Virus record (IMG/VR): IMGVR_UViG_3300010316_000062
Span: 1 to 21,679 of that record
From: a virus
Reading direction: 5' to 3' (one strand)
DNA: 21,679 nucleotides
Positions 1-21,156 of the stretch are shown piece after piece (position 1 is the stretch's first letter; every line of letters starts with the position of its first letter). Under the pieces are notes generated by a model. The model was given only the letters and a program-made list of their open reading frames with translations. It did not search any database and was not told where the DNA came from. The position numbers and the translations under genes were made by a program.

Positions 1-45
1 ACGCCACCCGGATCCACCCAAACGCCACGCCCTAGGGAAAACACT

Positions 46-60
46 TGCGAACCATTCGCA
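46..60. repeat. 15-bp inverted-repeat element, copy 1
   Basis: TGCGAA-CCA-TTCGCA is a perfect 6-bp inverted repeat around a 3-bp spacer. It is flanked by CCTAGG at 33-38 and 61-66. An identical copy lies at 262-276, also near a CCTAGG. It could be a binding site for a dimeric protein or a small cruciform; the function is unknown. Confidence 0.7.
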
Positions 61-116
61 CCTAGGCTTCCCCCCTGATCAGGAATAAGAACCACCCACG
101 CGTGTGTTTCCTATTC

Positions 117-209
117 GGCTGGCTGTGGCTGGCTGTGGCTGGCTGTGGCTGGCTGTGGCGATGGCGTGGCTGTGGCGTGGCTGTGGTTGGCTGTGGTTGG
201 CTGTGGTGG
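117..209 (+). repeat. 10-bp tandem array (GGCTGTGGCT)
   Basis: Four perfect GGCTGTGGCT units occupy 121-160 (the last one differs in its final base), preceded by a partial unit at 117-120. The array continues as degenerate GGCTGTGG units to about 209. A 10-bp period puts every unit on the same face of the helix, which suits cooperative protein binding or bending. Translation gives a Gly/Trp/Leu/Ala low-complexity string, so this is not coding. Confidence 0.85.
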
Positions 210-211
210 AT

Positions 212-223
212 CTTAGGGGATGC
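212..223 (-). repeat. Inverted copy of the GCATCCCCTAAG core
   Basis: The plus strand reads CTTAGGGGATGC, the exact reverse complement of the GCATCCCCTAAG core at 300-311 and 322-333. The motif is therefore present in both orientations within about 120 bp. Confidence 0.7.
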
Positions 224-261
224 ATCCACACGTCAAAATTACAGATGCAAAGAAAGCCAGA

Positions 262-276
262 TGCGAACCATTCGCA
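262..276. repeat. 15-bp inverted-repeat element, copy 2
   Basis: Identical to the element at 46-60 (TGCGAA-CCA-TTCGCA) and followed by CCTAGG at 282-287. The two copies are 216 bp apart and bracket the 10-bp GGCTGTGGCT array. Confidence 0.7.
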
Positions 277-298
277 AGTAGCCTAGGCGCATCGGATC

Positions 299-352
299 CG
301 CATCCCCTAAGCCACCCACTCGCATCCCCTAAGCCACCCACTCGCATCCCCT
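299..352 (+). repeat. 22-bp tandem array with CCCTAAG cores
   Basis: Two perfect 22-bp units (299-320 and 321-342) are followed by a 10-bp partial unit (343-352). Each full unit contains CCCTAAGCCACCC. The core recalls the short CCTAAAG repeats next to the terminal repeats of T7, which is known biology for that phage. The assignment here is by analogy of sequence and position. Confidence 0.75.
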
Positions 353-679
353 CAATGGATATACAATCTGACGCAAAGCCTTTGTTTCTATGGCGCTCGC
401 AGCGATAACATGCGGATCTGTTGCAGGGCGGTAAGGATGGAGGCGCAAAAGAACTACTACGCATGTGCCTGCATCCTCTGTGTGAGGGTGGGACCGCCCC
501 TGTTAGTGGCAAGGGGGGAAGTTCAGTTCGTGCTCTATCGGTAAGGTGATCACATTTTTCGGGAAAAACTATCGCTACCCTAAGCCCCCACAAGCCACCC
601 TACAGCCCCACTGTAGTTAAACAGCAGGACTGGCCCGATTGTTGGGCTAAAGGGCGCGTAGGTGGGCTTAGGCTGGCTC

Positions 680-1915
680 TTAGAACCCTCCAGTCACACT
701 GATGGTCCAGCCACGGCTACGCATAGCTGTGATAGCCGCTTCACCTGTGGCAGATGGGGCTGACCCACCAGACTGATTGAATGTGCCGTTAGATGTCGCA
801 GCGGTGTTTATGCTTGTAAGGATGTTGTCGATGGAGGTTTGAGTTAATGCCGTGTTGTCGAATGCGAAGGCGAAGTCGATACAAGGCGTAGCGTCGAACA
901 TATTAGAGGGGAATGAAGTCAGCGAAGAGCAACCGCGCCATGCGTTTGTCATGTTTGTTACGGAAGACGTGTCGAGCAATGGGAATGAAGCCAGCGAAGA
1001 GCAACCGTACCATGCGTTTGTCATGTTTGTTACGGAAGACGTGTCGAGCACTGGGAATGAAGTCAGCGAAGAGCAACCGTACCATGCGTTTGTCATGTTT
1101 GTTACGGAAGACGTGTCGAGCACTGGGAATGAAGTCAGCGAAGAGCAAGCGTACCATGCGTATGTCATGTTTGTTACGGAAGACGTGTCGAGCACTGGGA
1201 ATGAAGCCAGCGAAGAGCAACCGCGCCATGCGGCCTGCGCGGCTGTTACGGAAGACGTGTCGAGCAATGGGAATGAAGTCAGCGAAGAGCAATCGCGCCA
1301 TGTGTTTGTCATGTTTGTTACGGAAGACGTGTCGAGCACTGGGAATGAGGTAAGGTAATTCATACCCCTCCAATAGGCTGAAAGGTCGGATACACCTCCA
1401 TAGTCCCCACCGCCAAATGAAGCCTCGATTTCCTGCTTCTCTTTTATGGACAGAGATCCTTCTATACCAAAGAGACCAGTGATGTCAGGCCCCGGCCAGT
1501 AGGCACCGCCTAGTGTTGTTAAACCAGAAGGAAGAGATACACCATAAGTAGCTGTGCCCTCAGTCGTGCCGATGACCATGTCTCCCACAAGGCCACTACC
1601 GGGAACAGTGACGATCACGCCGTCGTCAACCCGGTCCATGACCAGCCTGTTCGGGGTCTCTTGGAACACAGGTTGCGTACCTGCGGAGCCTGTCTCAAGC
1701 TCGTAGCCATTGGGGCTAGAGTCCCCTGCAGTGTCAACAATGTCACCTGCAGTAGCAACAACTCCGGGAGCGCTCTCCACTGTCCCGGTCTCAAACTGAT
1801 ACCAAAAACCGAAGCGACCTGTGAATAGCGCTAAGACATCTACGGCCACTTCACCAAAGTATCCAGAGACCCGCAAAGGGGAAGCTACGACCCGGTTAAG
1901 GAGTTGCTTAAGCAT
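680..1915 (-). CDS. BspA-like repeat protein, probable virion surface or adhesion protein
   Basis: This 411-aa protein has a unique N-terminal half. It is followed by six 24-residue repeats of the BspA/DUF285 type, with consensus like SSVTNMTNAWYGCSSLTSFP, and a C-terminal segment with LTQTSIDNIL, SNGTF and RGWTISV. DUF285 repeats are leucine-rich-repeat-like units found in bacterial surface adhesins and in some phage structural proteins. The start codon directly abuts the stop of the upstream 86-aa gene (TAAATG), so the two are probably translationally coupled. The gene lies downstream of the terminase, at the position of T7 19.5, and behind a probable phage promoter. I infer a receptor-binding or decoration role. 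The repeats differ from one another only at amino-acid-changing positions. Confidence 0.8.
   Translation of the reverse strand: MLKQLLNRVVASPLRVSGYFGEVAVDVLALFTGRFGFWYQFETGTVESAPGVVATAGDIVDTAGDSSPNGYELETGSAGTQPVFQETPNRLVMDRVDDGVIVTVPGSGLVGDMVIGTTEGTATYGVSLPSGLTTLGGAYWPGPDITGLFGIEGSLSIKEKQEIEASFGGGDYGGVSDLSAYWRGMNYLTSFPVLDTSSVTNMTNTWRDCSSLTSFPLLDTSSVTAAQAAWRGCSSLASFPVLDTSSVTNMTYAWYACSSLTSFPVLDTSSVTNMTNAWYGCSSLTSFPVLDTSSVTNMTNAWYGCSSLASFPLLDTSSVTNMTNAWRGCSSLTSFPSNMFDATPCIDFAFAFDNTALTQTSIDNILTSINTAATSNGTFNQSGGSAPSATGEAAITAMRSRGWTISVTGGF
911..1342 (-). repeat. Six tandem 72-bp repeats inside the BspA-like gene
   Basis: Units begin at 911, 983, 1055, 1127, 1199 and 1271, exactly 72 bp (24 codons) apart. 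Because 72 is a multiple of three, every frame stays open, which creates false ORFs on both strands. Fifteen of the 24 codons are identical in all six units. The other nine codons vary, and every difference changes the amino acid. The unit at 1199-1270 is the most divergent (AAQA in place of NMTN). Confidence 0.95.
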
Positions 1916-2176
1916 TTAGTAAACCTCCACGGCGGCAGTGCCAGATGTGTAACCACCTGTGGCGATCCCGACCCGCAGGAACCAAGCGCTTGCTGGGGAT
2001 GCAGTCAGCACGGTTGGAGCGGTGGTGTTGCCAATGTCGATCCAGTTGGTGGTGCCGTCCTTGGACAGCTGGGCAGACACTGTACCGACGAATGTGCCGG
2101 ATACGGAGATGTCAAACCCTTTGTCACCCTGAATAAGCTGAGGGGACGTGAATGTGTTCTGTGCAGAGATGTCCAT
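1916..2176 (-). CDS. Small beta-rich protein of unknown function, possible virion accessory
   Basis: The product is 86 aa and starts MDISAQNTFTSPQLIQGDKG. It contains the pattern FDISVSGTFVGTVSAQLS, then TTNWIDIG, and ends with RVGIATGGYTSGTAAVEVY. This alternating hydrophobic, Ser/Thr/Gly-rich pattern suggests a small beta-sandwich, and similar short proteins occur next to phage structural genes. The open frame extends upstream to 2290, but that part overlaps the zinc-ribbon gene and is out of character, so I chose the ATG at 2176. The preceding bases (CGAAAGAAATAAAC) give only a weak ribosome binding site. Its stop abuts the start of the BspA-like gene. The function is not known. Confidence 0.75.
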   Translation of the reverse strand: MDISAQNTFTSPQLIQGDKGFDISVSGTFVGTVSAQLSKDGTTNWIDIGNTTAPTVLTASPASAWFLRVGIATGGYTSGTAAVEVY

Positions 2177-2205
2177 GTTTATTTCTTTCGTTGCTGTTGC
2201 TATGT

Positions 2206-2218
2206 CCCCTCGGAGGGG
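2206..2218 (-). promoter_or_regulatory. Short GC-rich hairpin upstream of the 86-aa gene
   Basis: The minus-strand RNA contains CCCCU-CCG-AGGGG, a 5-bp stem with a triloop, about 30 nt before the ATG at 2176. There is no U tract, so it is not an obvious terminator. It may be an RNA processing or stability element. Confidence 0.35.
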
Positions 2219-2250
2219 TAGGATGTAATCCGACCACGCAGAGGGGGGCC

Positions 2251-2364
2251 TCAGCTGGCTTTCGTGTAAACGGCACCACAGCATCCACACACCACGGTCT
2301 TTGCGGGGGTGAACGCCATAGGGCGATTGCAGTTGTTACAGGTCTTGGTGATGATGATTGTCAC
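2251..2364 (-). CDS. 37-aa zinc-ribbon-like small protein
   Basis: Read from the minus strand, the GTG at 2364 opens a 37-aa frame beginning MTIIITKTCNNCNRPMAFTP and ending VVCGCCGAVYTKAS. It holds two CxxC knuckles (CNNC and CGCC) separated by about 13 residues, with Gly after the second knuckle. This is the usual layout of a small zinc ribbon. The GTG overlaps the TGA of the upstream gene (GTGA), and AAGGA lies 9 nt upstream, so initiation and coupling are well supported. It may bind nucleic acid or protein; no specific function is visible. Below about 40 aa, chance ORFs are possible, but the paired knuckles plus a good ribosome binding site argue against chance. Confidence 0.65.
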   Translation of the reverse strand: MTIIITKTCNNCNRPMAFTPAKTVVCGCCGAVYTKAS

Positions 2365-2507
2365 CGGGGGAAGTCCTTCACATAGATCAACACGCCACCT
2401 TTCCACAGGACACCTCCGACATCGCTCTGGACGATCCTGTCGATGTCATATGCCAGTGCGGCGATGCCTAGGAGGAACCCCACCAGCATGTAAGCTGTGG
2501 GTCTCAT
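2361..2507 (-). CDS. 48-aa small membrane protein
   Basis: The ATG at 2507 opens a 48-aa frame: MRPTAYMLVGFLLGIAALAY, then DIDRIVQSDVGG, then VLWKGGVLIYVKDFPR. The N-terminal part is one hydrophobic membrane segment (about residues 5-20), followed by a short charged region and a second, shorter hydrophobic stretch. AAAGAGAG lies 7 nt or more upstream as a ribosome binding site. Its stop overlaps the start of the zinc-ribbon gene. It is the first gene after the probable phage promoter at 2618-2637, matching the place of small T7 genes 19.2/19.3. The function is unknown. Confidence 0.65.
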   Translation of the reverse strand: MRPTAYMLVGFLLGIAALAYDIDRIVQSDVGGVLWKGGVLIYVKDFPR

Positions 2508-2597
2508 CTGAGGTCTCTCTTTAATGGGGGGCTGGAGGGGGTGCCTCCCCTCACCATAACCATGTCCATAGCTCTAGAGTAACTATAGGGTAACGGA

Positions 2598-2618
2598 GGG
2601 GGGCGGGGGAGGCTGGGG
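2598..2618 (+). other. G-rich tract just downstream of the probable promoter
   Basis: The plus strand has runs of 6, 5, 2 and 4 G separated by 1-2 other bases. A second G-rich tract lies at 2526-2541 (runs of 6, 2 and 5). Plus is the template strand for the promoter at 2618-2637, so the first transcribed bases would be C-rich. Possible effects include a G-quadruplex on the template strand; this is inference. Confidence 0.5.
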
Positions 2619-2637
2619 CTATGGTGGCGGGTAATTA
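2618..2637 (-). promoter_or_regulatory. Probable phage RNA polymerase promoter, phiOR-like
   Basis: The minus strand reads TAATTACCCGCCACCATAGC, starting with the TAA stop of the large terminase gene. A copy with 19 of 20 identical bases lies at 19626-19645 in the same relation to an upstream stop codon. The sequence resembles the T3 late promoter (AATTAACCCTCACTAAAGGG) in its AT start, CCC centre, CACC-like block and ATAG end. In T7 the phiOR promoter lies in the same place, directly after gene 19. Transcription would run leftwards into the small genes and the BspA-like gene. Confidence 0.7.
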
Positions 2638-4407
2638 TCCGTCGTTCCACCGGGCGGCTTTCATGGCCAGCTCGATTGAGCCACCCATAGCGAGGATGTC
2701 GAGGCTGATGCCGTCCTGTCCGCTCCACGATGCAAGCTCTGCTTCGAGGATCTCAGCAGCACGTTGGTCCATCTTGTCTTCTTCGTTCTGGCCCATCTGC
2801 TCGACCCAGTAGGCGACACCGATAGCTAGGGCGTCCAGTCGGTCATCATAGGCTAGAGCGCCACGGGCTTTCGTGATCCGCGTGAGCTGGTACATGAGCT
2901 GCCTCTTCTGGGCCTGCTCGGTCGGGTAGTGCTGCGTGCTCTCCAGATCCTTACGGAGGACGCTGTCGCATAGGATCAGCTTGTGCTGGTTCATGACAGG
3001 CTCAAGGGTGTCGATGATCCGCGCCTCTTTCTGGGTGTTGTGCTTCACCTCTTCCAGCGTCATCGGATACCCGGCCTTCTTGAGGAAGGGTGTGAACAGC
3101 TTGGTGAACATACCGTCACCGAAGTTGCCCTCAATGATACCAGCGTTGCACTTGTTCCGCTTGGCGATCTGGGCAAGCTCTTCCATGACGGGGTCGTCGT
3201 ACCCGCCCTGCATCCCGCCAGCCTCTGTCACGTAGAGGTAGCCGTTCAGCATCTTGACCACAGCGTAGGTGGTCTCATCCTTGCCGCGACCTGAGGGGTC
3301 AATGGCCAGCACGGATCCTTCGTAGGGAACCCAGTCGCCAAGCATGGCAGCGGGCCTGTAGTAGCGATCCCCATTGAGGCCAGGGCAGTGCATGTCCTTG
3401 AGGGTGTACATGGGGTCAGCGGACCAGATGATCCGTTCAGAGGCGACCTCGTTGTTCAAGCCAGTGATCAGCAGATCGGACAGCTTGAGAGGGTACTTGT
3501 CACGGTCGGACAAGGCTGTGTCGAGCATGAACTGCAGGGAGAAGCCAGAGCGACCATAGGAGGCCTCACGCTCCATGAGATCCTGATCATCGAAGCGGAT
3601 TGGATCTGTGGGGTCACCGACCAGTAGCGTCCCTTGTACCATCTTTTCGAGGATCGTAGGGGCGATGGCTGCGAGGTAAGAGTTTGCAAGTCGGGTGCCC
3701 TTGGCGTCAGGCAGCTTAGGGGCACGTGCTGGCCAGATGCGGACCACGTAGCCACGCTCTGGGAGCTGGTTGTACAGGCTCTCTTCGGTCTGGGGGGTGC
3801 CAAGGTACTTGACGGACCCACCGGGCTTTAGAACCGCGTCAAACTCCTTCACACGCTCTGCCAGCTTGTCACGCATGGTCTGCGTCTCGGAGTTGTTAGG
3901 AACCTCAACGTCATCTGCAATGATCTCGTCGGCGCGGCCACCCGTAAGCTGACCGAAGATCCCTACGGACTTGACCGAGGGGCTGTGGTCGGCACGCGCT
4001 GGGCCTACGTCGAAGCTGATCTTGGACTGCCGCTGATCGGCGCGGGGGATCAGGTGCTTTAGGATGTCCATGTCGTTGATAAGACGAAGGGTGAAGGTGG
4101 AGAACTGATCGGCGCGTTCCTTGGAAGCGGACACGACCATGATCTTAAGCTGAGGGTTGCGTAGTAATCGCCAGCACACGTAGGCCGAGGTGATCCAGCT
4201 CTTGCCAACACCACGGAAGGCTTCGGTGATCATCCGGCGTGGGCCATACTGCAGCCAGCTTGCGATGTCGAACTGTACGGGTGTGGGGTCTGGCAGCATG
4301 AGGTGCCGCCACACGAGGATCAGAAAGTAGCGGAGGTCTTCAAAGATCTTCCAGTCTTCCTCTGGGTACTCCTTGCGCCACCACTTGACGTCGTCTTTAA
4401 TGGCCAT
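2635..4407 (-). CDS. terL: Terminase large subunit (T7 gp19-like DNA packaging motor)
   Basis: This 590-aa protein is close in length to T7 gp19 (586). The N-terminal ATPase carries the Walker A motif AFRGVGKSWIT (about residues 63-73) and the Walker B motif EIIADDVEVP (about 161-170). The C-terminal nuclease domain shows VLAIDPSGRGKDETTYAVV (Asp near 370), GIIEGNFGDGMF (about 423-433) and DDRLDALAIG (about 521-530), which supply the acidic metal-binding residues. The enzyme pumps concatemeric DNA into the prohead through the portal and cuts it at genome ends. AAAGGA lies 10 nt before the ATG. It follows the small terminase gene after a 115-bp gap. Confidence 0.97.
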   Translation of the reverse strand: MAIKDDVKWWRKEYPEEDWKIFEDLRYFLILVWRHLMLPDPTPVQFDIASWLQYGPRRMITEAFRGVGKSWITSAYVCWRLLRNPQLKIMVVSASKERADQFSTFTLRLINDMDILKHLIPRADQRQSKISFDVGPARADHSPSVKSVGIFGQLTGGRADEIIADDVEVPNNSETQTMRDKLAERVKEFDAVLKPGGSVKYLGTPQTEESLYNQLPERGYVVRIWPARAPKLPDAKGTRLANSYLAAIAPTILEKMVQGTLLVGDPTDPIRFDDQDLMEREASYGRSGFSLQFMLDTALSDRDKYPLKLSDLLITGLNNEVASERIIWSADPMYTLKDMHCPGLNGDRYYRPAAMLGDWVPYEGSVLAIDPSGRGKDETTYAVVKMLNGYLYVTEAGGMQGGYDDPVMEELAQIAKRNKCNAGIIEGNFGDGMFTKLFTPFLKKAGYPMTLEEVKHNTQKEARIIDTLEPVMNQHKLILCDSVLRKDLESTQHYPTEQAQKRQLMYQLTRITKARGALAYDDRLDALAIGVAYWVEQMGQNEEDKMDQRAAEILEAELASWSGQDGISLDILAMGGSIELAMKAARWNDG

Positions 4408-4522
4408 ACGAGAGATGTCCTTTGGGCACGCCTAAGCCGCCCACAGGGACTGCAGGGGCTAGGCTGTTGTGATTTCAGGGGTAGGTGTGGCCCCTGTTAG
4501 TTAGGGGCGCTGTGTGGACGCC
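4408..4522 (-). other. 115-bp intergenic gap between terminase genes with a hairpin
   Basis: No gene is seen here. In T7 the interval between genes 18 and 19 holds the Rz/Rz1 spanin genes, so the gap is notable. A perfect inverted repeat, GCCCCT-AACTAAC-AGGGGC (minus strand, 4490-4508), could form a 6-bp stem with a 7-nt loop but has no U tract. CCTAAGCC-type sequence also occurs at 4431-4438. The hairpin may be an RNA processing site. Confidence 0.45.
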
Positions 4523-4765
4523 TCAGTGGGCGTACAGGTGGTCGTCGTTGTCAGGCAGATCAGGAAGGCCATCGACCAGTGATTGCATACCGGGTGTCTT
4601 GCTGCCGTCTGCTTGAATGCCGTTGTCCTTGAGGAACTGCCGGATCACGTTGAGGTCGCTTGCTGTCAGCGTGTCAGGGCTTTCCAGCTTTGACTTCATC
4701 GCCTCAGCCATCTTTCCATGAAGGACAGCGAGCATGTCCTCTGTTGCTTTTGATTTATCGCTCAT
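4523..4765 (-). CDS. terS: Terminase small subunit (T7 gp18-like)
   Basis: The product is 80 aa, starting MSDKSKATEDMLAVLHGKMA, with the later motif DLNVIRQFLKDNGI and an acidic C-terminus (LPDLPDNDDHLYAH). This matches the short small-terminase type of T7-like phages (T7 gp18 is 89 aa) that recognises DNA for packaging and works with the large subunit. The open frame continues upstream to 4849. The ATG at 4765 is preferred because it overlaps the stop of the upstream holin-like gene (ATGA) and the upstream extension is Arg/His-rich and unlike the family. Identification rests on size, sequence pattern and the position before the large terminase. Confidence 0.85.
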   Translation of the reverse strand: MSDKSKATEDMLAVLHGKMAEAMKSKLESPDTLTASDLNVIRQFLKDNGIQADGSKTPGMQSLVDGLPDLPDNDDHLYAH

Positions 4766-4983
4766 AGTTGGTTCCATATGTCTTTGAGGAGTGTGAGTGC
4801 CACTGAACCAATGGCGGTTATGGCAGCGAGAGCGCCTAAGCGCTTCCACTGACCCTTCTCCAGCTTTCGGATGCGCGTCTCGTGGTCATCAACAACAGCC
4901 TTTCGATCCCTTAGGATGTCCAGTATCTGTTGTTGAGCGCCCTCAAGACGGCCTAGGCTGCGGTGGATGCTGTCTGCGTCCAC
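4762..4983 (-). CDS. Holin-like membrane protein with coiled coil (position of T7 17.5)
   Basis: This 73-aa protein starts with GTG directly after the tailspike stop (TAAGTG). Residues 1-48 are charged and heptad-like (LGRLEGAQQQILDILRDRKA, then HETRIRKLEKGQWKRL), predicting a coiled coil. Residues 49-66 (GALAAITAIGSVALTLLK) form a single membrane segment, followed by a short tail. Coiled coil then C-terminal membrane helix is the layout of XhlA-like proteins, and the gene holds the place of the T7 holin gene 17.5 between tail protein and small terminase. A holin or membrane-anchoring role in lysis is likely. A second holin candidate lies at 20051-20269. Confidence 0.65.
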   Translation of the reverse strand: MDADSIHRSLGRLEGAQQQILDILRDRKAVVDDHETRIRKLEKGQWKRLGALAAITAIGSVALTLLKDIWNQL

Positions 4984-6450
4984 TTAGAAACGGGTCCAAG
5001 TCCCGGCACCTGCATCAGTCAGACGATAGGTGTCTGAGCCAGCCATGATGTTTGGGTCGATGTAGAGGTCACCATTGGTCAGCGTACCGGGGAATGTATT
5101 GCCTGCAGGTGAGTTGTAGCCAGTGATGCGGCGGCGGAGGTTGTCCATTTCTTCGTACTGGTACCCAACGATAGCATCGTTTGAGAAAGGGATCGTCCCA
5201 TGTGCGAACGCATTGCCGCTGGCAAATACTGTGTGCTGTGTGCTTGAAGAGAACCCGTGCTTGAACAACGTAGTGTCACCAACTTTGTTATCGCGGATGA
5301 AGTAGGTCTGGGTTGACACAGCGTTGGAATCGAAGAAGCGAGCGTTTGCAAGGTTCTGGTGGGCCGCGTAGTGCCAGTCAACACCTTCAACGATGATGTT
5401 AGATCCAGACAGAGTCCCGCACTTAAAGATAGAGGGGTCTGCAGCACCATCCGGGTTAGCGCCAGCCATGCCGTCATCAAGGTATGCGAGTATACCAGAG
5501 AAGCGCAGGTTTTTACCACGCTGGATGTCCACGCAGTAATCCCGCGCATTGATGTGCCCAGACAGCATTGTGAAGCCGGGTTCGTTCGAAGTCCCCCGGA
5601 GTTGTACGCCAGTCCGCGAATAGTTCGCTGTGCAGTTTCGCAGTATACCGCCTTCTGCAGATCCGTTTGTATCAGACACAAAGGCCGCGCCTTCTGTGCC
5701 ATCAATAAGACCACCACCACAACGGAACATACAGTCTTCAAAGAAGAAGCCATAGACTTCCTTGAGGTGACACGCGCTCTCAGGGACGAAGGCGAGCCAG
5801 TTGTTGCGGTACTTATTTGCAGCGTCCGTCAAGTTGGCAGTCAAGAGCTGGTTTGAGCGCACGTTCTTTCCGTGTACAAACCATGCACCTTCAATGTAAA
5901 GCGGTCGGCTGAAATATCCCTGATCGTTGTTGAGGCTGTAGAACTCCACGTTCTCAAGGAGAACAGAGGTAAACCCGCGCAGACCCGGTGCAGGTGAGTG
6001 GATAATCTGGAGGCCGCGCCCGCAGTTAACAACACCACCCGAAATTGGAGATGCAGCGGAAAACGAGAGGTCTTTAATCTCAATGTCCATCGTCTTTGAA
6101 ATGCTGGTGCATTCCAGTTTCAACAGGCCAGTGGAATTAACATCGCCGTTTGCCACAAGCGTGGCGTTGTTCCCGTCGATAATCAGCTTTAGGTCAGTGG
6201 AAGCAGACCACGTTACCATAGCGTCCATACGAATGAACGCATGTGGTGGCATTACCAAGATTTTCTTGTCTGTGATCGCCGTATTAATGGCAGTCTGCAT
6301 AGCTGCGGACTTGTCTGTGCCAAGGTCTGTTGCGCTAACATAGTCATCACCATGAACGCCATCAGAAACGGCGAAGTGATAAGTCTTATCAATCCACTCC
6401 GCGTTCATTACGTTAGTGGGTAGCATCGCATAAGATACTGTGGTTACCAT
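4984..6450 (-). CDS. Tailspike with predicted beta-helix (pectate-lyase-like)
   Basis: This 488-aa protein has an N-terminal section with the pattern DGVHGDDYVSATDLGTDKSA AMQTAINTA and ILVMPPHAFI, typical of the start of pectate-lyase-superfamily beta-helix tailspikes. Short repeated strands follow (LLENVEFYSL, FFEDCMFRCGGGLIDG, GGILRNCTANYSRTGVQLRG). The C-terminus (SPAGNTFPGTLTNGDLYIDP, ending TDAGAGTWTRF) is a compact Gly/Thr-rich end domain like those found on many fibres. Such proteins bind or cut capsular polysaccharide or lipopolysaccharide at the host surface; catalytic residues cannot be assigned. AGGGA lies about 7 nt before the ATG. It sits between the fibre genes and the holin-like gene. 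Confidence 0.75.
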   Translation of the reverse strand: MVTTVSYAMLPTNVMNAEWIDKTYHFAVSDGVHGDDYVSATDLGTDKSAAMQTAINTAITDKKILVMPPHAFIRMDAMVTWSASTDLKLIIDGNNATLVANGDVNSTGLLKLECTSISKTMDIEIKDLSFSAASPISGGVVNCGRGLQIIHSPAPGLRGFTSVLLENVEFYSLNNDQGYFSRPLYIEGAWFVHGKNVRSNQLLTANLTDAANKYRNNWLAFVPESACHLKEVYGFFFEDCMFRCGGGLIDGTEGAAFVSDTNGSAEGGILRNCTANYSRTGVQLRGTSNEPGFTMLSGHINARDYCVDIQRGKNLRFSGILAYLDDGMAGANPDGAADPSIFKCGTLSGSNIIVEGVDWHYAAHQNLANARFFDSNAVSTQTYFIRDNKVGDTTLFKHGFSSSTQHTVFASGNAFAHGTIPFSNDAIVGYQYEEMDNLRRRITGYNSPAGNTFPGTLTNGDLYIDPNIMAGSDTYRLTDAGAGTWTRF

Positions 6451-6460
6451 TTTCTATTCC

Positions 6461-7351
6461 CTAGTAATACTGGTAGTCAACGACTACTGATGTTACACCA
6501 TCCGGCCAGCCGCCTGTGATGGTTACTGTTTCGCCTGAGACTGTGAAGTCTGATGGTCTCTGACGGATACCGTCTAGGTACACTTGCATGTCTGTTGTAG
6601 TTAATGGGGTTTCCGAAACAACAACGGATGGTCCTGTGCCTGTTACGGCGAACTCTTCTGTTGTCTTGATCGTGTTGGACAATAGCGTCCATACTGACCA
6701 GACGCCAGAATAGTACCGCCGCGTCCACACGGAGTCGCCAACTATTCCCCACCATGTCTGCATGGCTGTAGTTGGCCCAAGACTTTCGACGCGCAACAGC
6801 CCCCAGTGATTGGGATGTGGGAAGTCACCTGTTGTTGCTGTTGTTGTGGCGTGCCACCCAATGTGCAGTGTAGTGACGTTGATGTCTGTCGCGGTTCGGG
6901 CTGTGTTTCCGCCAAGTCCGAATGAACCATATTCCCCATCAACTTTGAGAAGGGCACCAGAAGTTTGGTCTATAGAGGACGTCTGTAACACTGGCCTGTT
7001 CAGGAGTACGTTGAAGTCCGTCGTACCAGCGACACCATCGTCACCTTGGATGCCTTGAACACCAATCACACCTTGTATACCTTGGATGCCCTGAATGCCC
7101 TGAATGCCATCAGAGCCTTGCGGTCCTGTCGCACCAGTGGCCCCAGCAGGCCCCGCAGACCCTGTGTCCCCCTTGGCCGCTACAAGCTGCCAGTAGGTCG
7201 CGTTAGTGGGCGTAATGCCCGGTGTGGTTCCGGTGATACAAACGTAGGATGAACCAAGGTATACGACGCTGTCGAGCGCGATGTAGGAAGTAGCTGCGCT
7301 GTAGTTTCCTCGTGGGAACATGCGGACGCGGCCAATGTTTAGAGTTGCCAT
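6461..7351 (-). CDS. Collagen-containing tail fibre protein with pyocin-knob-like region
   Basis: This 296-aa protein has three parts. Residues 1-60 (RGNYSAATSYIALDSVVYLG, then TPTNATYWQLVA) look like a small carbohydrate-binding module. Residues 61-109 are Gly-X-Y collagen-like, with repeated GIQ. The remainder includes TTGDFPHPNHWGLLRVESLG and QTWWGIVGDSVWTRRYYSGV (followed by WSVWTLL), resembling the pyocin knob domain. The end, MQVYLDGIRQRPSDFTVSGE, is a frequent C-terminus of phage fibres. It probably forms a trimeric appendage fibre. AAAAGGAG lies 6 nt before the ATG. The DNA at about 7046-7110 has 9-bp repeats that encode the GIQ units. It is 12 bp from the upstream fibre gene and probably co-expressed with it. 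Confidence 0.75.
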   Translation of the reverse strand: MATLNIGRVRMFPRGNYSAATSYIALDSVVYLGSSYVCITGTTPGITPTNATYWQLVAAKGDTGSAGPAGATGATGPQGSDGIQGIQGIQGIQGVIGVQGIQGDDGVAGTTDFNVLLNRPVLQTSSIDQTSGALLKVDGEYGSFGLGGNTARTATDINVTTLHIGWHATTTATTGDFPHPNHWGLLRVESLGPTTAMQTWWGIVGDSVWTRRYYSGVWSVWTLLSNTIKTTEEFAVTGTGPSVVVSETPLTTTDMQVYLDGIRQRPSDFTVSGETVTITGGWPDGVTSVVVDYQYY

Positions 7352-7363
7352 TATAGGCTCCTT

Positions 7364-8269
7364 TTAGATTACTGACGTGTCGGCTTGCATGTCGCCGTTA
7401 GCGTCGATGTAGAGCGCCCCAGTTGCGAGCGATCCGACGTATTCAAGTGTGAGCATTCCTGTGTTCGTCACCGCGAAGTTGCCAAATGCCAGAGCCATAG
7501 GGCTGTCGCCTAGAGGGCCTTGGTCGCCTGTTGGACCTTTATCACCAACACCACCGGGTTCGCCTTGGATGCCCTGAGGGCCTGTGTCGCCAACAGTTAC
7601 AATTCCAGCTGGGCCTGTTGGACCAACGCTGCCTTGAGCACCTTGGATGCCCTGCGCCCCCGCGACACCGATGACACCTTGTGGTCCTGGAACACCACGA
7701 GGGATGCTGAGTTCCATTGTACCAGTGTCGATGGAGTATGAAGCTATTGGGGTATCGGTGTAGTCCAGAGGCACTACCGTTACGTTCAGATCGGAAAGCT
7801 GATTACGGATCGCCACAACCTCGCCAAGACTTGAAGCCTCGTAGGTGGCAATAAATCCCAAAGGCACAGCGTCTGTCAGCTCCACCGGGGATGCTAGGTT
7901 GGTCAGGCGGCGGTCTTCGGCATCCCACACGGACCCATAGGCACGGCGGATGGCGTCGAAGCCTACGTCTCTGGCCTCCTGCGCTAGGTAAAGAGACTGC
8001 TGGTGGATAAGATCGAGATCGTCAGCCTCAAGGTTTGTTCCGTTGTTGAAGTTAATGAGGTCAGTGTCAGGTGTTACCCGATAGACCCGCACAAGTGCAT
8101 TCAGTGCAGGAGCAGGTGAGATGTTGATTGTTGAAGATGAGTTGAACGTGAACGACACCTGATCAGCGTCAACCTCAACGAAGACGTGAGTGCGGTCTAG
8201 GTATGGAAACGGGATATTGAACAACGTGGTCGCGCCATCACCGAACGTGGTAGAGGTAGCTGTTGTCAT
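7364..8269 (-). CDS. T7 gp17-like tail fibre (N-terminal attachment domain plus collagen stalk)
   Basis: This 301-aa protein begins with the T7 tail-fibre N-terminal domain, which docks the fibre on the tail. Signs are FGDGATTLFNIPFPYLDRTH, residues 70-85 (DLINFNNGTNLEADDL) and HQQSLYLAQEARD (about 89-101). Residues 192-255 are Gly-X-Y collagen-like, followed by a short C-terminal domain (TNTGMLTLEYVGSL, YIDANGDMQADTSVI). It is shorter than T7 gp17 (553 aa), so receptor binding may be passed to the next proteins (6461-7351 and the tailspike), with this one as adaptor. The only good Shine-Dalgarno sequence is 34 nt upstream behind a hairpin. Confidence 0.85.
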   Translation of the reverse strand: MTTATSTTFGDGATTLFNIPFPYLDRTHVFVEVDADQVSFTFNSSSTINISPAPALNALVRVYRVTPDTDLINFNNGTNLEADDLDLIHQQSLYLAQEARDVGFDAIRRAYGSVWDAEDRRLTNLASPVELTDAVPLGFIATYEASSLGEVVAIRNQLSDLNVTVVPLDYTDTPIASYSIDTGTMELSIPRGVPGPQGVIGVAGAQGIQGAQGSVGPTGPAGIVTVGDTGPQGIQGEPGGVGDKGPTGDQGPLGDSPMALAFGNFAVTNTGMLTLEYVGSLATGALYIDANGDMQADTSVI

Positions 8270-8310
8270 GACTTACCAGCCCACCCGCTGTGACACGGGC
8301 AGGCTCCTTT
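8270..8310 (-). promoter_or_regulatory. Split ribosome binding site with hairpin before the tail fibre gene
   Basis: AAAGGAG lies at 8304-8310 (minus strand), too far from the ATG at 8269 for ordinary use. Between them AGCCUGCCCG (8296-8305) can pair with CGGGUGGGCU (8278-8287), ten pairs including two GU wobbles, with an 8-nt loop. Folding would put the Shine-Dalgarno sequence about 8 nt from the ATG. Alternatively, the GTG at 8296 starts a 7-codon mini-ORF (MSQRVGW) that stops 3 nt before the fibre ATG, giving coupling. Confidence 0.55.
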
Positions 8311-8336
8311 CATTTTAGGATGGTTGGTTTAGGCGG

Positions 8337-11300
8337 CTACTTGCCGAGGTCGATCACACCACTCAGGAGTGAACGGGCGTTGGTCTGTGAAGCTGAGTAG
8401 CGCTCCACAACCGACTGGCGAAGCTCTGGATACAGGATCAGAAGCTCTTGCTGGGCCAGCTTACGGTATCCTGTGATCACGCGCTTTACCGCACGCAGTC
8501 GTGGGTCCATGTCTGGATCTGAAATGTCCCCTGTGCGTTCCCGGTTGATGTCGTATGTCGGGCTGCTGATCACCTTCTCCAGCTCTTGGTACAGCGTCCG
8601 ACGTGATCCCGGTGCCCGCACCTTTCCGTGCAGCTCAAGGTATGTCTCGTACTGCTTAGGTGACAGGTCAACTCCACGTATGTTGCGGAGGGGTGCAGGG
8701 AAGCCTACATTGAGATTGGCCAGCTCGTCGAGCACCTTGTCCTTCTTCCACTCACCCTCGTAGATCGGGTTCATGGAGGCGAAGGCTTCGCCCAAAGGTG
8801 AGAACGCATCCTTACCCCAGCCCTTTGGATAGAAGATTGGCTCCCCAGTGATGAAGGAGCGCTTGGCTGGTAGGCTGTCTGAGTACCCCGGAATAGTGTT
8901 CTTGATGCTGTCCAAGATCGTGCGGACGTCGCGCATCGCGGGGTCTCCTGCCTTACGCATCTCACGCATAGCAGCAGACATCGGCAAGAAGCTCGCTGCC
9001 ATTTTCTGCATGTACCCACCCATTCGCTGTTCTGGATCTGAGTATGCCTCAACAGCATCGGTCAGACCCTGCAGCCACGTCTTTGAACCGACGTTTTTGG
9101 CGACGGCAACAAGGCCAGCGTTTGCGATTTCACCAATCGTCTGCTCGTCCAAGTGTCCTGAGATTTCCGCAACGTCAGCGGCGATCCCGAAGAACATGGC
9201 GAACGGATCCAATCGTGCATAGGCGATGTACTTGTCACCGACCTTCACGCTGTAAGGTTGCCAGCCTGTGGCCATGAGCACCTTACGTTGTTCGAAGTCA
9301 GTAGGCCCAGACCCTGTGATCTTCCCCTCGTGTGCGGACAAGATAGCTGCTCCCCACATAAGGTTCCCTGTGGCCATCTTACCGCGAGCTGCGGCAACAC
9401 GAGAAGGGTCAGCGCTCTTTAGATCCTCCATGAAGCCCTTGCTCAGACGTCGGATGAGAGGTGTACGCTGCACCCCTGCCACGAGGATGTTGGTCGGTGT
9501 GCGAACAAACGGCACGATGGTCTTCAGCCACGGATGATCGTTTGTCATCTTCTGGATAGCACGCGGCATGGACCCCTGACGAAGCTCATTGGTGAACGTC
9601 GCCTCGCGTGCGTGTGTTAGGTCGTCCAGAGACTTTGCAGCCCCGTCAGCACCGATGCCAGACCGCATACGATCAGCGACCCACTTAGAAGCGTCAGCCT
9701 TAGCGATCTGGCCCCCATCAATCATGCGTGTGGCCTGCCCCATGAGGCGGGCGTACAGACTTGAACGGTAGTTGAGCTGCTTGAACACCTCATCACCTGC
9801 CAGAAGGAACCGCGAAGGGAGGCGGATGGTTTCGCCCACTGCGTTGATCAGGTTACGGGCCACCGCGTTCTCACTGTTTGAGGTGATCGCACGGAAGTCG
9901 CTGCCATTGGCCTCAAGGATTGCGGCCTCTGGATCAAGAATGTTGCGGCCCTTACGGAATGCAGCTGCAGCAGCTTTGAAGCTGTCCTTCACTGCTATAG
10001 AGAGGCCAACGTACTGGTTGGCCCCCTCACGCATCATCTCCCGGTTCCCAGCCATAGCGCCGCCTAGGAACTTCTCAGCTGGTAATAGAGCAGACTGAAA
10101 GCCATTGGAGATCATGTTGATCATGTGCGTGCGTGGGCCGGATAGAAGCCCGTTGATGCGGACCTCGTTTGTGACTGCCCAGAAGCCTTTCGCTTGGCGA
10201 TTGGCGGCGATACGCATCACCCCAGAAGCCCCGTTGCCAGCTGCCTTACTGAGAACGATCTGCATGGCGAGGTCATCAATAGCCTTGCGTCCCCCGGCAG
10301 CGTGCAGGCCATCCTCCATCTGTTTGAGGATCGAAGAGCTGGCAAGTTCACCCCCGGTCAGGATGTCTTCGGTGCGGATCCTGCCAGCTGCTGTTGTCTG
10401 TGCAGCCCCCTTGATCACGGACTTAAGATCCCCTGCAGTCTCCAGCAGACGGGATTGCAGGCGTACCATTCTGGAATAGTCTTCCACCACGCCGACACCG
10501 TTTGAGATCTTAACTGCCAGCAGCTCAACCTCACGTGAAAGGCTTTGGACCAGCATCTTACCAGCGATGACGATGCCCTGCTGTTGGCGTGCATCCTTTG
10601 CCATAGCGCGGAGTGACCCGTCGATGACCTCAGGGGAGACGTCAACACTGTCCCCTAGGAACGCCATAGCCTCGCTCCGCATCTTGTCGAAGGTCTTTGT
10701 ATCCTGCAGGGCGCTCTCTGGGATCGCGTCAGAGGCCATGTTCAGGTACTCTTTGATCGACGTCTCACTGTCCATCGTGTCGAAGTTGAACAGCTTACCC
10801 TCAACATATGCGTCAGGGTTCGTCATGGAGCCTGCACGCTGCATCCCCATCTCAAAGTCGATTGCAGATTGGAACGCTGCTACGTCCACAGGCTTCCGAG
10901 GGGCCACTGTGGATCCTGGGATTTTTGCGTCAGGGGCAGTTGGTGTTGGTGTAGGTGCTGCGTCACCCCCGTATACTTCCACCTTCTTAGGGCCAGCCCC
11001 AGCGTGTTGCAGGTTAGGGTCGGTTGTTGCGTCAAAGAGGTCAAGCTGTAGTGCCTCTGGGTTCTCGTCAACGATCTTGGCAATCTCAGCCTGCATCGTC
11101 TCAGCCGCAGCGATGTCTCCATCAGCCTGCTGTACCACCTTGGCCCGCTTGAACGAACGAGCCAGAAGGAACACACCCTCAGCCGCCACACCAAGCCCTA
11201 GGCCCTCTACCGCGTTCTTGAGCTTACCTTCCAACACCGTGTCATCCCCGTCCGCAGACAGGTACGCAGTGATGGGGTCAGACAATCCGAGATTATCCCG

Positions 11301-11963: not shown

Positions 11964-11981
11964 GCGTTATTTCCTTTGGGA

Positions 11982-14219: not shown

Positions 14220-14231
14220 CGTCTGGTTTCC

Positions 14232-14825
14232 TTATAATGAGTACGACCCAGTCTGTGGATCACGAACTGCGAATGTTTCGAATGAGCTTAAGGCTCCAGC
14301 CCCAAACTCTAGGGCTGAACCGAGAAGGCTCGGTCCTGCCACCGGATTGAGTGGCATAGTGTTGATGCGCCCTTCGGCCTGTGACTGTAGGCCCTGACGG
14401 CTACGCTCTAGCTGGTCATTGGTGAAGCCGAGCTGCTGCATCTGCGTGTCAGCATATGAGCTGTACTGCCTGTCATAGTCACTCAGCAGTGCGTCCATAG
14501 ACAGCCCTGAGCTTTCACTCGTTGCTACTGCGGTTGACGTGGCCTCACGGGCCTTTGTCTTTGCGTTCTGGATACGAAGCGCTGTTGATGCACTCTCTTG
14601 TTGCTCGCGCTGTTGTAGGCTGTCATTCCCGTCGATCATCGCCTGTACGGCGGCGTTGCGGGTGTTCAGGGCATTGGTCTCTTGGGCCTTTACCTGTGCG
14701 GTCTGGTTCTGCTTCTGGGCCATGTAGCTGACACCTGTCGATACCAACGTCAATGCCAGTGAAGCCGCCATCATCGTCGTAGCGGACATAGCGCCTATGG
14801 CACCAATAGCTGCTGGGAAGCACAT
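14232..14825 (-). CDS. Internal virion protein (T7 gp14-like)
   Basis: This 197-aa protein is almost the length of T7 gp14 (196). The N-terminus is strongly hydrophobic (MCFPAAIGAIGAMSATTMMA, then ASLALTLVSTGVSYMA). It is followed by a long Gln/Ala-rich helix (residues about 36-100) and a Ser/Gly-rich C-terminus. In T7, gp14 is ejected first and lodges in the outer membrane to start the DNA channel. AAGAGGT lies 7-9 nt upstream of the ATG, overlapping the end of the preceding gene. Assignment rests on size, hydrophobic start and synteny. Confidence 0.8.
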   Translation of the reverse strand: MCFPAAIGAIGAMSATTMMAASLALTLVSTGVSYMAQKQNQTAQVKAQETNALNTRNAAVQAMIDGNDSLQQREQQESASTALRIQNAKTKAREATSTAVATSESSGLSMDALLSDYDRQYSSYADTQMQQLGFTNDQLERSRQGLQSQAEGRINTMPLNPVAGPSLLGSALEFGAGALSSFETFAVRDPQTGSYSL

Positions 14826-14831
14826 ATGGTT

Positions 14832-17692: not shown

Positions 17693-17701
17693 GCTGCTAT
17701 C

Positions 17702-18307: not shown

Positions 18308-18323
18308 GGGAGCCTCGTCTGTG

Positions 18324-18362
18324 AAAAAAAAGGGGGGCCAACGCTATTAACGTCAGCCCCCC
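18324..18362 (-). terminator. Intrinsic terminator after the capsid gene (T7 Tphi-like)
   Basis: The minus-strand RNA has GGGGGGCUGACG pairing with CGUUGGCCCCCC around a 7-nt loop (UUAAUAG). That gives twelve pairs including two GU wobbles, followed directly by eight U (18324-18331). It lies between the capsid and tail tubular A genes, as Tphi does in T7, where it lowers transcription of tail genes relative to capsid. Confidence 0.93.
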
Positions 18363-18384
18363 ATTGGAGATCTTAGGTGCGGGT

Positions 18385-19356
18385 TTAGGCCACAACACCA
18401 GTGGCGATCTCGATTGCACACTCAGGACGCAGAGGACCGTGGCCCATTGCGTACTTGCCGACCATCAGCGTACCTTGGTACATCAGTTCGTAGTCAGCGC
18501 CAGACTTCTGGATCTGTAGGTCCATCAGCTTGACAGTACCAGCAGCAGCTTTCTGGAAGACCAGACCTGCCGTGGTGGTGAAGTCGCCGTTGTAGGCGTT
18601 TTGCTCGCCAGTTGCAGCCGCAACAACAGCCGAAGGGACGTTGTTAGACTTGTGCAGCTGGATGCCGTTGATCTCAGGCAGTGTGCCCTTGGCATAGGAA
18701 CCAGCGCCGCCCCAGTCACGGTTCAGTGCGTCCTTCTGTTGGACCAGAAGCGAGTGTTGAGCAGGCTTGAACACGCCGTAGCGCTCGCCTTCCCACACGT
18801 CTTTCTCGTCGAAGGTTGTGCCAGCATCAAAGAGCAGAGAGGCAAGAACAGCGCCGTCAGTCTTTGCAGCAGCATTTACCAGACGCGAGCCACCGGGCAG
18901 GTCGTCGATCTTGTTTGCGGAGCGAGCGGCCAGAGCGATCACGCGGGCGACTTTCAGGTCGAACTCACGGGACAGAGCAGCACCAAGCTGTTTGGTGTAC
19001 TCAGAACGCACGTCGTAGTGGTTCTTCGCTTCTTCAAGCTCGTCGATGAAGACCTTGGAGATCAGGCGGTTGTCGATGTTGATCACGGTCTCGTTGGCTT
19101 TGATCTTTTCACCACCGACGATAGGCGTGCCAGCAACGTGGTAGGCTGCGGAGGCTTTGCCTGTGTGGTTGAAGGAGGCCGATTTACCCTGCGTGATCGT
19201 CCGCACAGTGTGCAGAGGCATGAAGATGTTCATCTCGTTGAAGGCAGTCAGCACTTCACCAGCGAAGGTCTTCAAGAACAGAGCGTTAGCAGCGGCGAAG
19301 TCAGCTGGAGTAGCAGCGTTGATAACACCGAGTTGGGAGATAATAGCGTCAGCCAT
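18385..19356 (-). CDS. Major capsid protein (T7 gp10-like)
   Basis: This 323-aa protein (T7 gp10A is 345 aa) starts MADAIISQLGVINAATPADF. It has the HK97-fold capsid features of T7-like phages, such as RTITQGKSASFNHTGKASAA, NIDNRLISKVFIDELEEAKN followed by HYDVRSEYTKQLG, and the C-terminal LMYQGTLMVGKYAMGHGPLR. AAGGA lies 7 nt before the ATG. It has its own regulatory frame, with the probable phage promoter 270 bp upstream and an intrinsic terminator directly downstream, fitting the need for high expression. No frameshifted longer form (as in T7 gp10B) is evident. Confidence 0.95.
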   Translation of the reverse strand: MADAIISQLGVINAATPADFAAANALFLKTFAGEVLTAFNEMNIFMPLHTVRTITQGKSASFNHTGKASAAYHVAGTPIVGGEKIKANETVINIDNRLISKVFIDELEEAKNHYDVRSEYTKQLGAALSREFDLKVARVIALAARSANKIDDLPGGSRLVNAAAKTDGAVLASLLFDAGTTFDEKDVWEGERYGVFKPAQHSLLVQQKDALNRDWGGAGSYAKGTLPEINGIQLHKSNNVPSAVVAAATGEQNAYNGDFTTTAGLVFQKAAAGTVKLMDLQIQKSGADYELMYQGTLMVGKYAMGHGPLRPECAIEIATGVVA

Positions 19357-19401: not shown

Positions 19402-19554
19402 TCACACTCGCTTTCCACAGGGTTGTCCTCCGCAGAGGGCCAAGCGCTGCTTGTGCTGTGTCATCAGGTGCCAGCTCGCTAAAAAGCGATGGTGACTTCC
19501 GATCTCACTTAAGGTTGGGTGGTATATGTCCTCGGCCCAGACCGTGACCGTCAT
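19402..19554 (-). CDS. Possible 50-aa leader ORF between promoter and capsid gene
   Basis: The ATG at 19554 opens a 50-aa frame (MTVTVWAEDIYHPTLSEIGS, HHRFLASWHLMTQHKQRLAL, CGGQPCGKRV). An in-frame stop lies 39 nt upstream, so the start is fixed. No clear Shine-Dalgarno sequence precedes it. It lies entirely in the leader of the capsid transcript and contains a small hairpin (TCGCT/AGCGA, 19476-19489). It could be a real small protein or chance; I recognise no family. Confidence 0.35.
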   Translation of the reverse strand: MTVTVWAEDIYHPTLSEIGSHHRFLASWHLMTQHKQRLALCGGQPCGKRV

Positions 19555-19625
19555 TACGGCAGCTTGGTCTTGGGCTTCGGGACAATGGCGCTAAGGCATA
19601 CCGCTGCGGTGGCGGTTCTACCTAT

Positions 19626-19645
19626 GCTATGGTGGTGGGTAATTA
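19626..19645 (-). promoter_or_regulatory. Probable phage RNA polymerase promoter, phi10-like
   Basis: The minus strand reads TAATTACCCACCACCATAGC, starting at the TAA stop of the lipoprotein gene and running towards the capsid gene. It is 19/20 identical to the element at 2618-2637. Start at the terminal G of ATAG would give a leader of about 270 nt before the capsid ATG. The position matches T7 phi10, the strongest late promoter. Confidence 0.7.
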
Positions 19646-19873
19646 ACAGAGCTTGGCGAAAAGCTCATTGTGGTCACCGATCTTGTTAAAGTCGGAGGCG
19701 GCGCTGGGTGGCCACTCTTGTTTCGTCAGCCAATCCTTGGTTGCTTGATCAAACTCAATGGCCTCAGCCCAAGTGCATTCCTTTGGAATTACCGGGGTGG
19801 GCCTGTCGAGGAAGCTACATGCGGTCAAGAATGCTGGACTTATCAAGAGGCACAGGGCGAACGCGAACTTCAT
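19643..19873 (-). CDS. Small lipoprotein, probable outer-membrane spanin (Rz1-like)
   Basis: This 76-aa protein starts MKFAFALCLLISPAFLTACS, a lipoprotein signal peptide with a clear LTAC lipobox (Cys19). The mature part begins SFLDRPTPVIPKECTWAEAI and ends IGDHNELFAKLC. The CTW...HN...C pattern recalls Rz1-like lysis lipoproteins. Its start lies inside the end of the upstream membrane-protein gene in another frame (59-bp overlap), which is the usual arrangement of spanin gene pairs. It would act with the inner-membrane partner to fuse or disrupt the outer membrane in the last lysis step. Confidence 0.7.
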   Translation of the reverse strand: MKFAFALCLLISPAFLTACSFLDRPTPVIPKECTWAEAIEFDQATKDWLTKQEWPPSAASDFNKIGDHNELFAKLC

Positions 19874-20050: not shown

Positions 20051-20269
20051 CTAATTGTCCCGATCCGAAAGGCGGTTGGCCGGGGAGGCTTTGGCAGTCT
20101 TGGTCACCACACCAGCAATGAGTTCGACCACCTTGTAGATCTTACCAAGGATGATGTCGTCAGCTGGGGTTGGCGTAAGGTTCACAATGACCACCGCCAG
20201 ACCGTGCAGTGATGCAAGGCAGATGGAGATGGTGTTCACGTGAACCAGAAGGAAGGCGATGAGTTCCAT
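20051..20269 (-). CDS. Small membrane protein, candidate holin
   Basis: This 72-aa protein begins MELIAFLLVHVNTISICLAS and continues LHGLAVVIVNLTPTPADD, giving one long hydrophobic N-terminal region (residues 3-31). A second weaker hydrophobic stretch follows (IYKVVELIAGVV, about 44-55), then a polar tail (KASPANRLSDRDN). Its start overlaps the scaffold stop (TGATG), so translation is coupled. It is the first gene of a three-gene cassette ahead of the spanin-like pair, which suggests a holin. It could also be another membrane protein of unknown role. Confidence 0.5.
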   Translation of the reverse strand: MELIAFLLVHVNTISICLASLHGLAVVIVNLTPTPADDIILGKIYKVVELIAGVVTKTAKASPANRLSDRDN

Positions 20270-21156
20270 CAGCGTACTCCTAGGACCGCCTGCGATGACG
20301 AGGCCAGTTTCTTCTGGACGTTGTCACGGAAGGCAGCGGATGTCTTGTATTCAGGCTTGGCCATGTCTTCCAACAGCTGTGCCTCAGACTCGTAGCCAGA
20401 CACTGCTGCCGGGGTCTTGCCGCCGATCAACTTAGGCTCAACGCCAACAGCTTTTGTGTACCGGGCGTGTGCCTCGGCAACGGCAGCTTTGGCTGTCTCT
20501 GGGTCGTTCAAGGCAGCATTGAAAGCGTCTGCCTCAGTTTGGGTGTAGGTCGATGCCATGTGCTTTGTCATGGCGGCATACCCATCATCACCCCCAGCCA
20601 GTGCCTTCACCGCAGAGATCTGTTCTGCAGCAGACGCTGCGACAGCTTCCTGTGCAACAGCCGCGTCAGCGTTGGACGCAACCACACCACGAAGGTAGGC
20701 CTCGACAATCTCTTTTGGAAAGCCAGCAGCGTTGAACTTGTCCATCGTTTCAGGCGTAAACTTGCCGTCATTGTCGGTGAACTCTTTCTGGACGTCGGCC
20801 ACCGAAACACCAGCCGCTGTCAACGCATTGTCAACGACAGTTCCGTAGCCACTCGCTTTGGCGTCATCAGCCTTTGGTTCAGCTGGATCTTCTTTGACAG
20901 GCGCGTCATCAACAACAGGAGTCTCAGCTTCTGCTTCTTCGGCTGGGGCCTGCCCGCCCATCTTCTTCTCAAGGGCTGTGTATGCTGCGAGAAGGTCTTC
21001 GTTGGTCTTGAACTTACCACCGATCAGGGGGTTGTCCGCAGCTTCCTTAGCCGCAGCCGCCTCTGACGCAGCAGCTCCAGTGTCCACGGTTACGGTAGCG
21101 GCTTGGGCACCCTCGACCACGGTGATGTTCGCGCCATTGTCATTCACGTCGCTCAT
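20269..21156 (-). CDS. Scaffold / capsid assembly protein (T7 gp9-like)
   Basis: This 295-aa protein (T7 gp9 is 307 aa) is acidic and Ala/Glu/Lys-rich. It carries the family pattern NPLIGGKFKTNEDLLAAYTA LEKKMGG near residue 42, then a low-complexity acidic linker (APAEEAEAETPVVDDAPVKE). A helical C-terminal half follows, with AGFPKEIVEAYLRGVVASNA. It directs prohead assembly and leaves before DNA packaging. GAGGA lies 10 nt before the ATG, inside the preceding 39-aa gene. It is placed between portal and lysis cassette rather than directly before the capsid gene as in T7. Confidence 0.92.
   Translation of the reverse strand: MSDVNDNGANITVVEGAQAATVTVDTGAAASEAAAAKEAADNPLIGGKFKTNEDLLAAYTALEKKMGGQAPAEEAEAETPVVDDAPVKEDPAEPKADDAKASGYGTVVDNALTAAGVSVADVQKEFTDNDGKFTPETMDKFNAAGFPKEIVEAYLRGVVASNADAAVAQEAVAASAAEQISAVKALAGGDDGYAAMTKHMASTYTQTEADAFNAALNDPETAKAAVAEAHARYTKAVGVEPKLIGGKTPAAVSGYESEAQLLEDMAKPEYKTSAAFRDNVQKKLASSSQAVLGVR

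Follow-up and report, generated by a model that had tools for sequence, protein, structure and literature searches.

A promoter set with distinct specificity letters, probably read by the phage-encoded T7-family RNA polymerase, in a temperate-type T7-like phage

Described T7-family promoters and the two copies in the window

Residues 746, 748, 756 and 758 of T7-family RNA polymerases (RNAPs) contact the promoter, and the substitution N748D switches T7 RNAP to T3 specificity. The promoters of T7 (TAATACGACTCACTATAGGG) carry CGACT at -12 to -8, with N748 and Q758 in the cognate RNAP, which is encoded by the phage itself; those of T3 (AATTAACCCTCACTAAAGGG) have CCC at -11 to -9, T at -8 and a GGG start. 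For Pseudomonas phage LUZ100 (OP329100), eight phage promoters, phi1 to phi8, are annotated. In the source (PMC10134795), five of these were above threshold by ONT-cappable-seq, the other three rest on the motif and the authors' manual inspection, and transcription at +1 was reported to be by the phage RNAP and not by that of the host.

The DNA analysed here, referred to as the window, is the whole 21,679-nucleotide stretch of the IMG/VR record IMGVR_UViG_3300010316_000062. A scan of the window for TAATTACCCRCCACCATAGC gave matches at 2618-2637 and at 19626-19645, which share the minus strand and run in the direction of the genes (Table 1). The two copies are identical at 19 of 20 bases, and their flanks diverge beyond the 20-mer. 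No third match with 3 or fewer mismatches was found in the window, the next-best places having 7, and 100 dinucleotide-preserving shuffles of the window gave 0 matches. The first three bases of each copy are a TAA stop codon, that of terL (2635-2637) and that of a 76-aa open reading frame (19643-19645), respectively. Promoters of the T7/T3 kind commonly begin on a stop codon: among the stretches compared, the stop codon of the preceding gene coincides with the promoter start in 6 of 13 T7 promoters, and such an overlap occurs in 7 of 11 T3 promoters. The first-pass annotation had described the pair, its strand and identity, the stop codons and the small probability of a chance placement, all of which were borne out; in calling the element two-copy it fell short, as described below. 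The start predicted at 19627 lies 271 bases upstream of the capsid ATG (19356), and the major capsid gene is likely the main gene served by this copy.

Table 1. Coordinates of the promoter copies, neighbouring genes and predicted leaders
Feature	Record	Position	Strand	Remarks
Promoter copy after terL	window	2618..2637	-	-18 at 2637, predicted +1 G at 2619; same place as LUZ100 phi8
Promoter copy upstream of major capsid gene	window	19626..19645	-	-18 at 19645, predicted +1 G at 19627; LUZ100 phi7
Terminase large subunit, 590 aa	window	2635..4407	-	phrog_38, E 5.4e-113
Major capsid protein, 323 aa	window	18385..19356	-	phrog_267, E 1.6e-73
76-aa ORF without PHROG match	window	19643..19873	-	ORF list
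Head assembly/scaffold protein, upstream of capsid promoter	window	20269..21156	-	phrog_1052, E 2.2e-46
Predicted first 110 bases of capsid transcript	window	19518..19627	-	fold more stable than that of shuffles, z -4.4
Predicted first 110 bases of post-terL transcript	window	2510..2619	-	GCCTCCCC/GGGGAGGC stem, z -2.7
Promoter copies	G001	22604, 21709, 20943, 18548, 11825, 8133	-	pattern search
Promoter copies	G002	8869, 15820	+	pattern search

The completed phage and its eight promoter copies

Searches of IMG/VR with the capsid and terL proteins returned two contigs from one sample with 100% identical proteins: L003, which is record G001 (24,075 bases), and L083, which is record G002 (16,449 bases). 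Window positions 11494-21679 correspond to G001 1-10186 and window positions 1-11504 to G002 11494-1, each at 99.9%. The phage map was closed at about 40.6 kb by L194, a 7.5-kb MAG contig that matches the end of G002 at 99.98% and the start of G001 at 100% identity, 74 bases separating the two. Since L194 is the same phage, the Bacteroidetes label of this contig was rejected as a host assignment and names no host with confidence. A search of 398 Pseudomonadota genomes with the 86-base tRNA-Leu, run without a positive control, gave 0 matches at E 1e-20.

In the joined contigs the gene order is T7-like. The genes include those for RNAP, a Bro-N protein, single-stranded DNA-binding protein, endonuclease I, amidase, primase/helicase, DNA polymerase, exonuclease, scaffold, capsid, tail proteins and terminase; the terminase is followed by a MarR-like gene (PF12802, E 4.1e-7), an integrase (PF00589, E 1.1e-29), a tRNA-Leu and then the RNAP gene. 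This T7 gene order, with a MarR-like gene and a tyrosine integrase before the RNAP gene, is that of the LUZ100/Pasto-type temperate T7-like phages. The RNAP gene, present whole in L194 (4845-7469), encodes a T7-family enzyme (PF00940, E 1.9e-107; RPOL_N, E 4.4e-20). Compared with 2573 phage records with a matching RNAP, it was less than 60% identical to all, the best-ranked being at 40.2%.

Eight copies of the element were found in the phage, all in the direction of the genes and six of them outside the window; the G001 and G002 coordinates in Table 1 cover all eight, the two window copies included. The consensus of the set is AATTA-CCCR-CCACCATWR, exact in five of the eight. When CACCATAG was aligned on T7 CACTATAG, AATTA fell at -17 to -13, as in the T3 promoter; in this register the specificity letters CCCRC occupy -12 to -8, CAC -7 to -5 and CATW -4 to -1, with the start at the next base. 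CAC is present in all eight sites and AATTA in five (AGTTA, CATTG and GATTA in the others), and the predicted +1 is G in seven and A in one. With a weight matrix run on both strands of the phage sequence, only these eight positions reached 8 bits or more. Leave-one-out scores ranged from 19.8 to 33.0 bits vs shuffle maxima of 15.5 to 19.6; the weakest site (G001 11825-11843), at 19.8 bits, is barely above the shuffle maximum of 19.6. At 3 mismatches, reversed-pattern controls matched at most once per strand in G001 and G002, and up to 3 times in G007 and G017. The 18-base core (with R) occurs in only three IMG/VR contigs, all of this phage, and was not found in the literature searched. Multiple copies in one direction, the layout, a cognate RNAP and a specificity block that goes with residues 748 and 758 (see below) are among the marks of a promoter for a T7-like single-subunit RNAP.

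Compared with T7, the sites share a layout with 17 bases ahead of the start, CAC at -7 to -5, ATA before the start G and a cognate RNAP encoded by the same phage; they differ in having CCCRC with E748. With T3 they have in common AATTA, C at -11 and -10, CAC at -7 to -5, an acidic residue 748 and the stop-codon overlap, two T3 promoters beginning TAATTACCC like the window copies. In contrast to T3, the CCC lies one base further from the start (-12 to -10), -8 is C and the start is a single G.

In LUZ100, RATTACCACACAG was found in the same register in seven of the eight annotated promoters, phi5 being without the motif. These seven share RATTA at -17 to -13 with the phage studied here; CA at -7/-6 and a start near G are common to both phages. 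Six of the eight sites have the gene places of LUZ100 promoters: before and after the RNAP gene, at the amidase gene end, before the portal region, before the capsid gene and after terL. The first-pass annotation had set the two copies at the T7 phi10 and phiOR places; the copy at 19626 is phi10-like, and that at 2618 matches the place of LUZ100 phi8, just after terL. In both phages a MarR-like gene and an integrase precede the RNAP gene. LUZ100 differs in having CCACA at -12 to -8 with D748, an RNAP gene without an internal promoter, and the tRNA-Leu between the MarR-like and integrase genes, whereas here it lies between the integrase and RNAP genes; its RNAP is 39.5% identical to that of this phage.

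A site was present 218-402 bases upstream of the capsid gene in all 12 closest capsid loci (at least 73% identical; about seven distinct lineages, L003 and L004 being this phage), in 11 by the strict pattern and in L009 by a looser one. In these loci AATTA and CCACCAT are constant, and -12 to -9 is CCCA, GGTG, AGTT, GGGA, GGTT or GAGTT-like, according to lineage; in the next ten capsid loci (47-57% identical) no such site was found. In G007, a related 42,222-base IMG/VR contig, nine matches to the pattern, each with 0-2 mismatches, lie on one strand; the reversed control pattern matched this contig 3 times. Seven of eight places are common to G007 and this phage, including one inside the RNAP gene. 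Its letters at -12 to -9 are mostly GGGA, or GGTG, with K748, the opposite letters and the opposite charge to CCCR and E748.

Some features of the predicted transcripts were also recorded. Leaders with z below -2 were found at 3 of 8 sites in this phage and 1 of 7 in G007, against 0 of 30 random 110-base windows; the leader of the site within the RNAP gene gave z -1.7. A tie between leader hairpins and promoters is suggestive. Directly after the promoter at the amidase gene end (G001 near 18500; L098/L097 of G007) there is a strong hairpin, which in G007 is followed by a T run in the manner of an intrinsic terminator; a predicted LUZ100 terminator (T6) lies at the same place. Just past the region of the terL transcript, at 680-1915 of the window (minus strand), a 411-aa protein with BspA/DUF285-type leucine-rich repeats is encoded, and its gene contains near-identical 72-base DNA repeats.

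Covariation with polymerase residue 748 and the alternatives

RNAP loci from 80 IMG/VR contigs and from LUZ100, T7, T3, SP6, gh-1 and EcoDS1 (86 in total) were searched blind for repeats on the RNAP strand, with TA and CA as the only anchors. A passing cluster was obtained in 29 of the 86, representing 22 distinct specificity loops; the other 57, gh-1 and EcoDS1 among them, failed the filter and lie outside the count. The promoters of T7, T3 and SP6 were recovered de novo by the same search, and LUZ100 was entered with its annotated phi7 sequence. L125, with Q at 748 and a doubtful motif, is one of the 22 and falls in neither the basic nor the acidic count.

Across the 22 distinct polymerases, of 666 positions compared, residue 748 (T7 numbering) came top for -12, -11 and -10 and residue 758 for -8; the top position for -9 was 869, outside the specificity-loop residues. 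A basic residue 748 occurred with G at -11 in 10 of 10 polymerases and an acidic one with C in 9 of 9 (Fisher p 1.1e-5, only a guide because the 22 polymerases share ancestry); the remaining three have N with G, N with A and Q with C. By parsimony, the class of residue 748 changes eight times on the tree, and the match is therefore not accounted for by shared ancestry alone. This phage (E748, CCC) is nested in a clade with K and GG, and its two nearest RNAP relatives have K748 with G. Of 24 further loci held out, three passed strictly: L225 and L228 (D, C) agreed and L196, with R748 but A at -11, disagreed, so the rule linking residue and base is not exact. Below the threshold, L224 and L229 (K, G) agreed and L205 (D748, A at -11) disagreed.

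Both window copies are very probably promoters of the phage's own T7-family single-subunit RNAP, two of a set of eight. Promoter activity, start sites and regulation are inferred from sequence comparison, and the pairing of the set with the phage RNAP rests on the covariation. The promoter kind is a known one, and the set appears to be a genuine member of it with a new specificity, CCCR at -12 to -9 differing from the letters of T7, T3, SP6, LUZ100 and the nearest relatives. An RNAP with a promoter specificity of its own, as the first-pass annotation had suggested, gains support from the T7-family gene in the same phage, from the six copies beyond the window, and from the distinct CCCR, E748 and a core confined to this phage in IMG/VR. 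By analogy with T7 and T3, the first RNAP would presumably be made by the host polymerase. The phage enzyme would then read the AT-rich block and, via its specificity loop, the CCC block, with E748 facing C at -11/-10 (in the two nearest relatives K748 would pair with G), melt the CATW stretch and transcribe the genes of the middle and late classes. The capsid gene would be served by the copy at 19626, and that at 2618 would drive transcription onward past terL; the copy between the integrase and RNAP genes would feed the RNAP gene in an autogenous loop, and one more lies inside that gene.

The element might instead be a repeated binding site of another phage protein (the MarR-like regulator, the integrase or a replication/packaging factor) and no promoter. 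Genes for a MarR-like protein and an integrase are present in the phage, and other repeated sites do occur in related phages, such as GTGCAGnnnCTGCAC in L117-L119; but all eight copies point in one direction, their letters covary with RNAP residue 748 and their places coincide with those of LUZ100 promoters, which makes such a site very improbable. A host sigma-70 promoter or other host signal, to which the position before gene starts and the partly AT-rich composition would be suited, is less credible still: no sigma-70-like site was found in the 600 bases around either window copy, the core is C-rich and its letters vary between phage lineages. A resemblance between unrelated 20-mers through chance or coding, for which the stop codons would supply the first three bases, has a negligible probability in view of the shuffles, the eight copies and the orthologous sites in relatives.

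The palindrome GTGCAGnnnCTGCAC itself is repeated 14, 7 and 10 times in L117, L118 and L119, respectively (at least 11 of 12 letters). In L117 and L118 it lies exactly 25 bases upstream of 3 of 10 promoters, in L119 of 0 of 4, and was rejected as a general promoter neighbour, as no rule emerged.

The polymerase gene and its surroundings

In G001, G007 and L110 (L095, L097 and L110 2061) a promoter site lies within the RNAP coding sequence, at about T7 position 588. It occupies the same place in all three polymerases of the clade and is found in none of the 26 other passing loci; the RNAP stretch that holds it is longer than in most relatives. Each site bears the letters of its own phage (CCCG in G001, GGGA in G007 and GGTT in L110), and the encoded amino acids differ with them (LPATIA, LGTTIA and LGSTIA, respectively). 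Among the papers found in searches on wider questions, none was seen to describe a promoter within the RNAP gene of a T7-like phage. According to PMC4299498, T7 RNAP split at 601 works in trans and the 601-883 piece sets promoter choice. A putative second product of 252-254 aa, containing the specificity loop, would be a natural counterpart, at low odds, of this engineered 'sigma fragment', and such a C-terminal piece could modulate the complete enzyme or compete with it.

An in-frame start candidate for the piece lies at T7 616-618. It is an ATG with GGAG 8 bases before (a 4-base match only) in this phage, a TTG with AGGAGGT 7 bases before in G007, and an ATG with AGGAG directly before, too close, in L110. 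Of the 252 internal ATG codons in this phage, 11 have a match of at least 5 at a spacing of 4-10, and the fragment candidate is not among them. The start-codon evidence for a natural C-terminal piece is weak and the signals are uneven, so the natural sigma fragment stays a low-odds reading.

In this phage and in G007 a promoter lies between the integrase and the tRNA-Leu (L096 15820-16046; L109 9457-9619), and no other such site was found in the interval from tRNA to RNAP; in L113, L114 and L117 the promoter is between the tRNA and the RNAP gene. The whole tRNA-Leu gene lies between integrase and RNAP in this phage. In a P. putida prophage a tRNA-Leu immediately precedes the RNAP gene, and 55 bases of the 3' part of this tRNA recur without a mismatch 40.5 kb further along, about 200 bases past an ORF read by eye as an integrase. 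Integration at tRNA-Leu was seen only in this prophage, in which a de novo promoter search gave no cluster. Inverted repeats TGTTGC/GCAACA, possible regulator sites, are present just before the RNAP start both in the phage studied here and in G007 (L096 16195-16207; L109 9959-9978).

If the phage integrates at tRNA-Leu, its RNAP gene would be parted from its own promoter and the positive feedback would be broken in the prophage. This reading and that of a second, C-terminal product from the intragenic promoter are bold ones of low probability. An intragenic promoter at the seam of the designed T7 RNAP split would, if it works, come as a surprise to specialists. The findings point to a new RNAP-promoter pair from a lineage without cultured relatives. 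Between close relatives the promoter set goes from GGG to CCC at -12 to -10 as residue 748 goes from K to E, and the change extends to the copy inside the polymerase gene, where it alters the encoded protein. How a polymerase and all its promoters change together can thereby be tested directly on two or three natural pairs.
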